Part shown: positions 8,030 to 39,178 of the stretch, in pieces
Layout of the letters: every line of letters begins with the position of its first letter
Numbering within the stretch: the first letter of the stretch is position 1
Assembly (NCBI GenBank): GCA_009929845.1
Contig: RZZM01000008.1
Span: 1 to 39,421 of the forward strand
Source: Spartobacteria bacterium
GTDB taxonomy: Bacteria > Verrucomicrobiota > Kiritimatiellia > RZYC01
Direction of reading: 5' to 3'
Length of the DNA: 39,421 bases
The notes under the pieces: model-generated
Database searches by the model: none
What the model was told of the DNA's origin: nothing
The model's input: only the letters and a program-made list of their open reading frames with translations
Translations under genes and position numbers: made by a program

Positions 8030-9502
8030 CTATTTAAGTTTTACGTTGTGTGCCTCCGCCAGCGCAAACGCCGCCAACGGGCCCTGGGTCCCGAACGGAT
8101 ACGGGTCCGGTCGTACGCGCTCCTCATCAAGCTGTTTGAGCAACGGCGTAAAGATATCCCAGGAAACCTTGAGTTCATCCTCGCGAATGAATAACGAGCG
8201 GTCCCCGCGAATGACATCCTGCAGCAGGCTCTCGTAGGCGTCCGGAATGACACCATCAAATTTCGCGGCGTACCGCAGGTCCAACCGCGTCTCCTCGACC
8301 CGGTAATCCAGCCCGGGCACCTTGTTGACGATCTTCAGGTAAATCGCCTCGTCGGGTTGCACGCGAATCACCAGTTCATTGGGCGGCAGGCAGGTCCCGT
8401 CCGCGCAGAATTCCTCGTGCGGGACCTCCTTGAAGCGCACACGAATCTCGGTCTCGCGGGTATTCAATCCCTTCCCGGCGTACATCAGGAACGGCACCCC
8501 CTCCCAGCGCCGGTTGTGAATCTTCAGCACCACCGCGGCGTAGGTCGGCGTCACAGAATCCGTCGGTACGTTCTTTTCCTCGTGATAGCCGGGGTGGTGT
8601 TCGGCGCGATACATCCCGGCCGTGTACTGGCCCAGGACCACATCATCGCGCGTCACCGGCGCCACGCTCTTGAGAAGTTTGACCTTTTCATCGCGCACCT
8701 GCCTCTTCAAATTGGCGGGTTCCTCCATGGCCACCAGCGCGAGCATCTGCAACAAATGGTTCTGCATCACATCCCGGATGATCCCGTAACTGTCGAAGTA
8801 GCCCGCGCGGTCGCCGATGCCCAGGTCCTCCGTCCAGGAAATCTGCACATTCTTGATGTAGAGGTTCCGCCACAGCGGCTCAAACACCAGGTTCGCAAAG
8901 CGCAACACCATCAGGTTCTGGATCACCTCCTTGCCAAGATAGTGATCAATGCGGTAGATTTGTGACTCGTCAAACACCTCGCCGAGGGCCTCGCCCAGGG
9001 CATCCGACGACGCCCGGTCCGAGCCAAACGGCTTCTCAATGACCACGCGCGACCACGGGTCGCTGTCCGGCGGATAGACCAGCCCCGCCTGGTGAATCGA
9101 CCGGGCCACATCCAGAAAGACCGACGGAGGAACCGCCAGATAGAACAATCGCCGACCCGGACGCCCCTGCTCCTGTTCTTCGATGGCCTTGCGCAAGCGG
9201 ACAAAATCCTCCGCATGGTCATAGTGCCCCTGCAGGTAACTGAAATGACCCACAAAATCCTGCAACCGCTGTTCGCAACGCTCGCAGGGACCGTACTTGC
9301 AGTGCAGGTTCCCCCGGATGCTCCCGACAAAATCCTCGCGCGTCATCGCGCGGCGCGCAAACCCGAACACATGGAATTTCCCGTCCACCAGCTTCTGGCA
9401 ATACAACGGCAACAGGGCCGGCAGCACCTTCCGCCGCGACAAATCACCCGAAGCCCCTATCACCACAATGCTCAAATGCATCTGCGCTTCGCTCATAGCC
9501 AT
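8030..9502 (-). CDS. zwf: Glucose-6-phosphate 1-dehydrogenase
   Basis: A 490-residue enzyme that oxidises glucose-6-phosphate to 6-phosphogluconolactone with NAD(P). The nucleotide-binding motif GASGDL lies at 16-21, the substrate-lysine motif EKPFG at 156-160 and the family signature RIDHYLGKE at 184-192. An unusual Cys cluster (C68, C73, C76) lies in the coenzyme domain, where I know of no function. Three in-frame ATGs occur at the start (9502, 9496, 9481). ATG 9502 is preceded, 9 bases away, by the GGAAA end of a 31-bp-phased palindrome array, which may serve as its Shine-Dalgarno. pgl follows directly. Confidence 0.95.
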   Translation of the reverse strand: MAMSEAQMHLSIVVIGASGDLSRRKVLPALLPLYCQKLVDGKFHVFGFARRAMTREDFVGSIRGNLHCKYGPCERCEQRLQDFVGHFSYLQGHYDHAEDFVRLRKAIEEQEQGRPGRRLFYLAVPPSVFLDVARSIHQAGLVYPPDSDPWSRVVIEKPFGSDRASSDALGEALGEVFDESQIYRIDHYLGKEVIQNLMVLRFANLVFEPLWRNLYIKNVQISWTEDLGIGDRAGYFDSYGIIRDVMQNHLLQMLALVAMEEPANLKRQVRDEKVKLLKSVAPVTRDDVVLGQYTAGMYRAEHHPGYHEEKNVPTDSVTPTYAAVVLKIHNRRWEGVPFLMYAGKGLNTRETEIRVRFKEVPHEEFCADGTCLPPNELVIRVQPDEAIYLKIVNKVPGLDYRVEETRLDLRYAAKFDGVIPDAYESLLQDVIRGDRSLFIREDELKVSWDIFTPLLKQLDEERVRPDPYPFGTQGPLAAFALAEAHNVKLK

Positions 9503-9511
9503 CCCATCATT

Positions 9512-9559
9512 TTTCCAATCATTGGAAACTTTTTACCCGTTTTTTCCAATCATTGGAAA
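9512..9559 (-). repeat. Phased 17-bp palindrome array, locus 1 (2 units)
   Basis: Units at 9512-9528 and 9543-9559, both TTTCCAATCATTGGAAA on the plus strand (8-bp arms around one base). Unit starts are exactly 31 bases apart. Read on the zwf sense strand, the 14-base spacer begins AAACG and ends AAAAAG, like those of locus 2. The last unit ends 9 bases before the zwf ATG. Confidence 0.95.
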
Positions 9560-15027: not shown

Positions 15028-15104
15028 TGGTCGGGGTGACTGGATTCGAACCAGCGACTTCTACGTCCCGAACGTAGCGCTCTACCAGGCTGAGCCACAC
15101 CCCG
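15028..15104 (-). tRNA. tRNA-Pro (anticodon CGG)
   Basis: 77 bases on the minus strand with the CCA end encoded. The acceptor arms are CGGGGTG and CACCCCG followed by ACCA. The D-arm includes GCTCAGCCTGGTAGAGC, the anticodon stem CTACG/CGTAG encloses loop TTCGGGA (anticodon CGG, reading CCG), and the T-arm contains GGTTCGAATCC. The sequence closely resembles bacterial tRNA-Pro(CGG). Confidence 0.97.
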
Positions 15105-15174: not shown

Positions 15175-15207
15175 GTGGTTTTTTTACTCTGGGGCCATTT
15201 ATACGTT

Positions 15208-15348
15208 TTTCCAATGATTGGAAAAATCGCGGGAAAAGTTTCCAATGATTGGAAAAAATGGGATAAATTTTTCCAATGATTGGAAAAATTGGCGAAAAAG
15301 TTTCCAATGATTGGAAAAATCGCTAAAAAAGTTTCCAATGATTGGAAA
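15208..15348 (+). repeat. Phased 17-bp palindrome array, locus 2 (5 units)
   Basis: TTTCCAATGATTGGAAA occurs at 15208, 15239, 15270, 15301 and 15332: five identical units with an exact 31-base period. The four 14-base spacers differ but are A-rich, typically AAtcg...AAAAAG. The last unit ends 6 bases before the rlmN ATG, placing GGAAA at Shine-Dalgarno distance. Confidence 0.98.
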
Positions 15349-15354
15349 CTTTTT

Positions 15355-16386
15355 ATGCGCGCGTATTTATTTGGAAAAGTATTGGCTGAGCTGAGGGAAC
15401 TGGTCCTGGAGATGGGATTGCCGGGGTTTCGGGCGGGACAGTTGGCGGAATGGCTGTATGGGAAGCATTGTGTGGATATCGGGGCGATGACGACGTTGTC
15501 GAAGTCGCTGCGCGAGATGTTGTCGGAGAAATATGAGGTCGGGCGCCTGCCGTACGAGCAGGTGGCGGTTTCCGCGGATGGCTGCCGGAAGTATCTTTTT
15601 CCCACGCACGAAGGCGCGCACGTTGAAAGCGCGCTGATTCCGGATGCGGACCGGGCGACGTTGTGTGTTTCGACGCAGGTGGGTTGCAAACGGAAATGCG
15701 CGTTCTGCATGACGGGGTTGCAGGGCTTTCAGGGTCAGCTTTCAGCGGGGGAAATCCTGAACCAGTACGCGAGTTGCCCGGAACGGGAGGTGATCACCAA
15801 CGTGGTGTACATGGGGATGGGCGAGCCGTTGGACAACCTTGACGCGGTGATGAAGAGCATCGATGTTTTTACGTCGGACTACGGGTATGCGAAGAGTCCG
15901 ACGCGCCTGACGGTATCGACGGTCGGCATCCTGGCCGGCCTTCCCCGCTTCATCGAGGGTTGCCAGGCGCATCTGGCGATCAGTTTGCATTCGCCGTTCG
16001 ATGAAGAACGCGTGCGACTCATTCCCGCGCAGCGGTCCAATCCGATCCGTGAGGTGGTGCGCCTGTTGAAGGGCTATGATTTCGGGCGGCAACGTCGTTT
16101 GACGTTTGAATATGCGCTCTTCGCAGGGGTCAATGATTCGGAGGAACATGCGCGGGAGACAGTGCGTTTGCTCAACGGGTTGCGGTGTCGCGTGAACCTG
16201 ATTCCGTTCAATCCGGCGCCGGAGATTCCCCTGCGGCCGGCGTCGCGCGAGAAGGTGGAGGCGTTCCAGGAGTTACTGAAGGATAAAGGAGTAGTGACGA
16301 CGATTCGAAAATCGAAGGGGCAGGACATTGCGGCGGCGTGCGGACTGCTTTCGACGCGTCGGGGAGCTACGCCGGCGTCCCCTTGA
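15355..16386 (+). CDS. rlmN: 23S rRNA (adenine2503-C2)-methyltransferase
   Basis: A 344-residue radical-SAM enzyme that methylates A2503 of 23S rRNA and, in some bacteria, A37 of tRNAs. The cluster motif CKRKCAFC (CxxxCxxC) lies near residue 111, preceded by the LCVSTQVG cysteine used in catalysis. MGMGEPLDN, STVGI, SLHSP and the C-terminal AAACGLL, with the second catalytic cysteine, all match. The frame is open back to 15280, but residues upstream of ATG 15355 are only translated palindrome repeats, so 15355 is the real start. Its 3' end overlaps the convergent mtaB by 20 bases. Confidence 0.93.
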   Translation: MRAYLFGKVLAELRELVLEMGLPGFRAGQLAEWLYGKHCVDIGAMTTLSKSLREMLSEKYEVGRLPYEQVAVSADGCRKYLFPTHEGAHVESALIPDADRATLCVSTQVGCKRKCAFCMTGLQGFQGQLSAGEILNQYASCPEREVITNVVYMGMGEPLDNLDAVMKSIDVFTSDYGYAKSPTRLTVSTVGILAGLPRFIEGCQAHLAISLHSPFDEERVRLIPAQRSNPIREVVRLLKGYDFGRQRRLTFEYALFAGVNDSEEHARETVRLLNGLRCRVNLIPFNPAPEIPLRPASREKVEAFQELLKDKGVVTTIRKSKGQDIAAACGLLSTRRGATPASP

Positions 16387-38257: not shown

Positions 38258-38605
38258 GTCATTAACTTCCTGCTAAAATTGAAGGTGAAATAAATTGCAT
38301 ATCTATCAGCATTTACCAGCATATTTTTGCATGAAATGCGAGATTCGTGAGATTGTGTGCGCGATATACAGAACGCCTTACCTCGACAGTTAGCCGCAGA
38401 ATGCCTGGGAAATAAAACGGACACAACTATTCACCGAACAGCCTCCGGAGGAGGCCAGCATACGGCGCAGCGAATTCCAGCGGTACGAGTCGTCGCCCTG
38501 ATGTCCAGCCTCGGAAAATCCTGATTTCTGATTTGATTATTGCCCAATTTGCGGGTATCAAGTTCGTTAAACAAAAAAATTGCAAAAGAAGGGATAATCG
38601 CCAAA
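38258..38605. other. Divergent gap holding repeat copy A
   Basis: 348 bases between the chaperone operon (minus) and the toxin-antitoxin pair (plus). It includes an A+T-rich stretch (38275-38340) that should carry the promoter of the chaperone operon; no clear -35/-10 pair and no CIRCE element are seen. The repeat at 38369-38450 follows. Confidence 0.6.
38369..38450. repeat. Repeat flanking the toxin-antitoxin pair, copy A
   Basis: Block 1 (38369-38397) matches 39256-39284 at 26 of 29 positions. Block 2 (38404-38450) aligns to 39362-39410, sharing CCTGG-AAATA-AA--GACAC and CAGCCTC-GGAG. Copy B has ~77 bases between the blocks where copy A has only six, so A carries a deletion or B an insertion. 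Confidence 0.75.
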
Positions 38606-38812
38606 ATGACAACCGTGCAAGAAATTGAACAAGCCATTGATCATCTCCCTCGAGATCATTTCTTTGAACTCATTGGTTGGATAAAATCTCGATTTGAAGA
38701 CGTCTGGGACGCTCAAATAGAGGCTGATGTTAATGCCGGAAAACTCGATTCTCTTGCTGATGAAGCTCTTGAGGAGTTTCGTTCAGGAAAGACATCGGCA
38801 TTCCCACAATGA
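38606..38812 (+). CDS. Antitoxin of a RelE/ParE-type pair
   Basis: 68 residues from ATG 38606; a longer frame from TTG 38540 is unlikely, since AAGGGA lies ~11 bases before 38606. The protein (TVQEIEQAIDHLPRDHFFELIGWIKSRFEDVWDAQIEADVNAGKLDSLADEALEEFRSGKTS) is of the short, acidic type whose C-terminal LDxLADEALEEFRxGK segment wraps a RelE-fold toxin. Its stop overlaps the toxin ATG (ATGA). Neutralisation of the toxin and autoregulation are inferred from the family. Confidence 0.85.
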   Translation: MTTVQEIEQAIDHLPRDHFFELIGWIKSRFEDVWDAQIEADVNAGKLDSLADEALEEFRSGKTSAFPQ

Positions 38813-39069
38813 AGAGCCATGTAACCAATCGTTTCTGGAAATGCTTCTATGCATTATCGCCCAATATACAGGACATCGCAGAGAAACAGTACAGGCTTTG
38901 GCATGATAATCCGCGACATCCATCACTTCAATTCAAGCGGATTTCATCATCTCGATACTGGTCAGCGCGAATAACAGATGATTACCGATGCCTCGGCGTT
39001 ATGGATGAGGATACCGTTGTTTGGTTCTGGATAGGTCATCATGCCGAGTATGAAAGAATCATTCGGTAA
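38809..39069 (+). CDS. RelE/ParE-family toxin
   Basis: An 86-residue basic protein with the RelE/ParE fold signature: RFWKCFYALSPNIQDIAEKQYRLWHDNPRHPSLQFKRI, then WSARITDDYRCLGVMDEDTVVWFWIGHHAEYERII. The WIGHHAEYERII ending is common in a subgroup of RelE-like mRNA interferases. Translationally coupled to its antitoxin. The pair lies between two copies of a repeat and immediately before palindrome array 3, which suggests a mobile or recombined cassette. Confidence 0.87.
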   Translation: MKSHVTNRFWKCFYALSPNIQDIAEKQYRLWHDNPRHPSLQFKRISSSRYWSARITDDYRCLGVMDEDTVVWFWIGHHAEYERIIR

Positions 39070-39099: not shown

Positions 39100-39178
39100 T
39101 TTCCAATGGTTGGAAACTTTTGTTTCCTTTTTTCCAATGATTGGAAACTTTTCGGGCGGGTTTTCCAATCATTGGAAA
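39100..39178 (-). repeat. Phased 17-bp palindrome array, locus 3 (3 units)
   Basis: Units at 39100-39116 (TTTCCAATGGTTGGAAA, one arm base changed), 39131-39147 and 39162-39178, again exactly 31 bases apart. On the minus strand both spacers end AAAAG, the polarity seen at loci 1 and 2. No minus-strand gene starts immediately after it; it stands 30 bases beyond the toxin stop. Confidence 0.95.

Follow-up and report, generated by a model that had tools for sequence, protein, structure and literature searches.

Helically phased palindrome arrays in Kiritimatiellae genomes as probable operators of a predicted dimeric DNA-binding protein

Results

Palindrome arrays in the window and in its genome

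The window, i.e. the whole stretch of DNA that was analysed (39,421 nucleotides), belongs to a fragmented 5.6-Mb Kiritimatiellae MAG of 779 contigs (G000). It contains nine exact copies and one near-exact copy of the palindrome TTTCCAATNATTGGAAA, which occupy three intergenic clusters and follow each other at exact 31-bp steps. The arrays and the adjoining genes are:

8030–9496, minus strand: zwf, glucose-6-phosphate dehydrogenase (G6PD_N and G6PD_C), adjoining the two-site array
9512–9559, no strand: two-site array, step 31 bp, TTTCCAATCATTGGAAA twice, 15 bp upstream of the zwf start codon used here
15028–15104, minus strand: tRNA-Pro (CGG), its transcription heading away from the five-site array
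15208–15348, no strand: five-site array, step 31 bp, TTTCCAATGATTGGAAA five times, between the divergent tRNA-Pro and rlmN
15355–16386, plus strand: rlmN, adjoining the five-site array, with its probable ATG 6 bp past the last palindrome
38809–39069, plus strand: gene with a ParE-like toxin domain, ending 30 bp before the three-site array
39100–39178, no strand: three-site array, step 31 bp, its first site with one mismatch to the consensus (GG centre)

This first site, at 39100, reads TTTCCAATGGTTGGAAA; the other nine are exact. Based on shuffled sequences, 0.19 copies were expected by chance in the window when up to three mismatches were allowed. The 14-base spacers within the array at 15208 were 50–79% identical to one another. 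Ten copies in these three clusters, separated by 31-base steps with differing 14-base spacers, had been reported in the initial annotation; all of them were found, and step and spacers were borne out at all three loci. Directly before the third array, at 38543–39069, an 89-aa ORF is followed by the ParE-like toxin gene, and the two apparently form a toxin-antitoxin pair.

The genome of the window held 220 exact copies of TTTCCAATNATTGGAAA and 276 copies of TTTCCAANNNTTGGAAA (TTTCCAA-NNN-TTGGAAA), and a control search with the reversed pattern gave 0 matches. The initial annotation had held that the phasing would be a coincidence if most genomic copies were single or irregularly spaced; nearly all of the 276 copies were located in 31-bp arrays. 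Among the first 100 pairs listed, the spacer was 14 bases long in 98 and 15 bases long in 2, with a pattern that allowed only 13–15 bases. Arrays were also observed at or near contig ends of this assembly (C163, C187, C197, C202, C334 and the end of the window, 39100–39178 of 39421). Because contig breaks frequently fall inside or next to arrays, the arrays themselves probably interrupt the assembly.

Anatomy of the palindrome

The site consists of the arms TTTCCAA and TTGGAAA, always separated by 3 bp, and can be written as TTTCCAA-NSN-TTGGAAA. Other arm gaps from 0 to 11 were absent from the sampled sequence, and the half-site TTGGAAA alone was not enriched outside the palindrome with the 3-bp gap. 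Perfect arms were present in 515 of 586 array sites, and substitutions were mostly found at the outermost arm base. The dyad base was C or G in all 515 array sites with perfect arms and in 109 of the 113 sites sampled from a single-contig genome with dispersed copies (G080, see below). The three central bases varied by lineage, being TSA in the family of the window and GCC or GGC in another family (f7). Many palindromes in the genome of the window were flanked by A5G/CT5; the T-tract was lacking in other lineages. The arm centres are 10 bp, or one turn, apart, a geometry to be expected if the two halves of a dimer contact successive major grooves.

Spacing and helical phase

Spacing was analysed in at least 86 loci from a GTDB-wide scan in which the step could take any value between 21 and 51 bp. 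The 106 adjacent exact pairs in the listed loci had steps of 21 (1 pair), 22 (1), 30 (1), 31 (63), 32 (36) and 51 bp (4), and no exact pairs at 23–29 or 33–50 bp were present among the matches listed. In a set of 193 distinct arrays with 2–7 sites each, 390 of 393 adjacent steps were 19–23 or 29–33 bp (up to two arm mismatches allowed), and all pairwise distances followed a 10.35-bp period whose offset was close to zero. Part of this set had been chosen with steps of 21–32 bp, and the scan with steps of 21–51 bp is therefore the unbiased one. The steps in arrays thus corresponded to two or three helical turns, and a four-turn step was never seen. Quantised steps and the 10.35-bp period support, at the level of sequence, the earlier proposal that all sites face the same side of the helix and would be bound by a cooperating dimeric protein.

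The exact step depended on the lineage: it was 31 bp in the lineage of the window, 32 bp in AM-2014_bin-1020, and alternated between 22 and 30 bp in rumen MAGs, where the two sum to five turns. Phased arrays were thus found in relatives, but a step of exactly 31 bp is lineage-specific. Since the steps differ between lineages and are always helix-integral, the fixed period appears to be a property of helical phase and not of one copied unit.

Signs of copying were also present. The central bases had the same orientation in 154 of 187 neighbouring site pairs (P = 7e-20), some spacers were near-identical, and of two gyrA loci that are themselves near-identical, L040 carried five sites and L087 six. 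Unit duplication therefore evidently helps array growth, and the earlier argument that a fixed period with variable spacers speaks against simple tandem duplication was not fully supported.

Distribution across genomes

Phased pairs were detected in 45 of 240 genomes of the class Kiritimatiellae, almost all genomes compared being MAGs. The highest numbers of single sites in relatives were 1,108 (G088), 1,010 (G008) and 712 (G035). The distribution was patchy within several families, in which some genera had hundreds of sites and sister genera had none. In the other classes of the phylum (192 genomes) no genome had more than one copy. When one genome per GTDB species was scanned, informative titles among the matches listed were nearly all those of Kiritimatiellae, Lentisphaerae or Verrucomicrobia MAGs. 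As a sequence marker, the palindrome may also help to recognise Kiritimatiellae contigs in metagenomes.

A contig titled Bacteroidales bacterium Tb.RUG.143 (L040, JAEEIJ010000041.1) carries a gyrA fragment that matches the one of a Kiritimatiellae MAG at 99.5% identity, and this contig is probably mis-binned. A 31-bp phased pair or triple was also present on two IMG/VR viral contigs (L194:3428–3506 and L195:10588–10635), which possibly represent Kiritimatiellae phages using host sites; beyond these two contigs with an array, nothing pointed to a phage link.

In two families (f17 and f30), hundreds of mostly isolated copies were found, often inside genes (L295–L354 of G080; L202–L223, L230–L232). 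In 1.2 Mb sampled from the 3.88-Mb contig of G080 there were 113 sites, of which 66% were located in coding sequence, compared to 85% expected. The copies were spread along the chromosome, and no bias towards ori or ter was seen in this sample. The copies in coding sequence had a preferred codon frame (38 of 75). Phased arrays may represent a derived or parallel use of the palindrome that occurs as single copies in these families.

Placement relative to genes

Genes were called with our own hexamer-based procedure. The sample of arrays was obtained partly from pattern searches. Of 176 arrays that could be placed, 165 were intergenic, in loci that are ~83% coding. Of these, 102 were located in tandem, 46 in divergent and 17 (~10%) in convergent gaps, and array-free control gaps in the same loci comprised 60, 20 and 20% by length, respectively. 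With control divergent and convergent gaps about equal in total length, arrays were denser in divergent than in convergent gaps (P = 3e-4). The distance from an array to the next start or the previous stop covered a broad range. Among the adjoining genes, 95 matched 170 Pfam families, mostly housekeeping, and neither functional enrichment nor a coherent regulon was detected among the array neighbours.

To locate orthologues, the N-termini of five genes with arrays in the genome of the window were searched in relatives. Arrays were found directly upstream of ruvB in G000, G001, G008, G035 and G103, and directly upstream of aspS in G000, G008, G035, G076, G088 and G103; in G076, the NSN pattern retrieved no array other than this one. 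The array at topA recurred in G035. At the orthologues examined of zwf and rlmN, the window's own targets, no array was present. The five genes gave 10 recurrences, compared to 1.8–3.7 expected from per-genome base rates (P = 6e-6, or 2e-3 with doubled rates); this is a rough test that assumes 850 genes per Mb, with genes picked because the genome of the window has arrays there, and its counts rest on approximate start codons. The arrays at ruvB and aspS had unrelated spacers and different centres across families, and their recurrence therefore argues for a selected function rather than inert repeats. Further recurrences were observed at dapA (G068, G173), pyrE (G008, G169) and topoisomerase VI B (AM-2014_bin-1020, G047), gene names that rest on reading of the sequences.

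Candidates for the binding protein

A 76-aa protein encoded beside an array (L096:1588–1818) looked helix-turn-helix-like by eye and had no Pfam match. It was present in 28 of 57 genomes, i.e. about half of the class genomes searched, regardless of the motif, and was missing from G008, G024 and G035. The Lrp orthologue (PF01037) was found in 28 of 30 genomes, including 12 of the 14 genomes with 0–3 sites. In its alignment no column separated motif-bearing from motif-free genomes, and the helix-turn-helix residues varied among the bearers. LexA was suggested by the arrays at ruvB, and PF01726 gave no match at E 0.001 in G000, G008, G035, G065, G085, G080 and G172. LexA (PF01726) was missing from most of the 30 Kiritimatiellae-class genomes searched, whether motif-bearing or not. 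No recurrent DNA-binding protein that could represent an autoregulated transcription factor was seen beside arrays, either among 188 genes over many genomes, in the genome of the window or in genomes with 1–5 arrays. The initial annotation had suggested a test for a co-occurring family of DNA-binding proteins, which all three candidates fail.

Discussion

We propose, with a probability of roughly 0.7, that the arrays are operator arrays for a predicted dimeric DNA-binding protein specific to part of the Kiritimatiellae. A homodimer would read the palindrome arms in two successive major grooves, and neighbouring dimers on one helix face would touch and cooperatively coat or bend 50–200 bp beside or over promoters. 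Dimers bound in this way may act as a broad transcriptional regulator and, at arrays that adjoin a start codon directly, as a repressor or roadblock. Units would be gained and lost via duplication of the 31-bp unit, with selection for helical phase keeping the step constant.

The strongest competitor is a class-specific nucleoid-associated or chromosome-organising protein (comparable in function to a nucleoid protein, or to factors with dispersed sites such as Noc or MatP), for which transcriptional effects would be secondary. Genomes with hundreds to a thousand sites but no regulon coherence would be expected of such a protein, and the copies along the single contig of G080, without ori/ter bias and to 66% in coding sequence, also fit it; the isolated, often intragenic copies of f17 and f30 leave room for a role of this kind. 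In array-bearing families, however, the arrays avoid genes, favour divergent gaps and recur at particular genes. Gene regulation accommodates these three observations better, and we regard a primarily chromosome-organising protein as unlikely, if still a serious contender. The arrays could also be tandem repeats of a VNTR or REP/BIME-like type, either inert or mobile, that multiply through duplication of units or the action of a transposase, in which case the phasing would be a by-product of copying a 31-bp unit. The shared orientation of neighbours, the near-identical spacers, the one-unit difference at gyrA and the contig ends within or beside arrays are all of the kind that such copying produces. 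It accounts poorly for families that keep different yet helix-integral steps (31; 32; 22/30), for invariant arms next to diverging spacers, for the empty ranges of 23–29 and 33–50 bp among the matches listed, and for arrays with unrelated spacers at orthologous ruvB and aspS across families. We therefore assign this explanation a small likelihood.

The slightest chance is given to an element that acts as RNA, i.e. as hairpins in untranslated regions or as bidirectional intrinsic terminators. The strong fold of the transcript of 15195–15358 (-62.6 kcal/mol, z -8.2) and the A5G/CT5 flanks of many palindromes in the genome of the window speak for it. Helical phasing would be meaningless for RNA, however, and a compensatory double change was found in just 3 of 71 variant sites. 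Terminators would be expected in convergent gaps, yet arrays are fewer there than in divergent gaps, and other lineages lack the T-tract. Scoring for terminators gave no candidate site at the array, and the array is not covered by any match in Rfam.

The operator reading would become wider if the protein were part of a class-restricted, global chromatin-like system. A new protein family would then form helically phased multimeric complexes that mark intergenic regions by the hundred in some families, and would occupy dispersed single sites in others, linking the regulation of housekeeping genes to chromosome organisation. We consider this extension conceivable, though doubtful. If such a function is confirmed, the arrays would constitute a genome-wide code, regulatory or nucleoid, that has gone unreported in a major bacterial class with mostly uncultured members, with a strictly conserved 17-bp operator in up to ~1,000 copies whose helical phasing can be read directly from sequence. 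It can be tested which protein reads the palindrome, and whether cooperativity over two or three but never four turns reflects oligomer geometry.

Comparison with known systems

The initial annotation knew of no described element of this form. A literature search for the palindrome sequence and for Kiritimatiellae palindromes returned nothing relevant, and to this extent the statement stands; the principle of phased palindromes has been described, at two or three turns for Lrp (PMC2995911) and at three or four for NrdR (PMC12051234).

Lrp-family regulators bind clusters of palindromes on one helix face with centres two or three turns apart, and their cooperative dimers form higher oligomers, as in archaeal Lrp-like regulators and BarR (PMC2995911, PMC10201364). 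The Kiritimatiellae arrays use precisely these two distances as their steps, which suggests that an array works like an Lrp-type cooperative operator cluster. Our best reading is a dimeric, class-specific global regulator or nucleoid protein that would bind one helix face at cooperative operators, in the manner of Lrp-family proteins. Known Lrp sites are degenerate, with AT-rich centres in the case of BarR, whereas the Kiritimatiellae arms are invariant and the centre is C or G (515/515). Membership in the Lrp family is unsupported for the one conserved orthologue, because it also occurs where the motif is scarce or absent, its reading head is not conserved among motif-bearing genomes, and the sites are neither degenerate nor AT-centred.

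NrdR boxes are pairs of palindromes with centres an integral number of turns apart, typically with 15–17-bp spacers, and three or four turns are tolerated (PMC12051234). The integral spacing is shared with the arrays. NrdR however uses two boxes at ribonucleotide reductase genes, and the arrays have two- or three-turn steps, up to seven sites and hundreds of unrelated genes as neighbours. Lambda CI binds 17-bp operators, with neighbours about two turns apart, as cooperative dimers, and is confined to a few operators at one prophage locus. The Kiritimatiellae sites share operator length and spacing with such CI operators, and would share the cooperative dimers, but form a genome-wide set. REP/BIME elements are intergenic palindromic repeats that are clustered, lineage-restricted and present in hundreds of copies, features that the arrays share; they differ from the arrays, which show a strict helical step and recurrence at orthologous genes, and in which no conserved tetranucleotide was noted outside the palindrome. 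DNA uptake sequences are short polar motifs with single half-sites enriched on both strands, unlike the half-site found here. LexA/SOS boxes are likewise a poor match, as lexA had no match in the seven genomes named above, and the arrays also depart from intrinsic terminators, with their convergent or 3'-end placement, T-run and compensatory stem changes. Compared with described phased sites, the arrays are unusual in their scale, their invariance and their restriction to one class.
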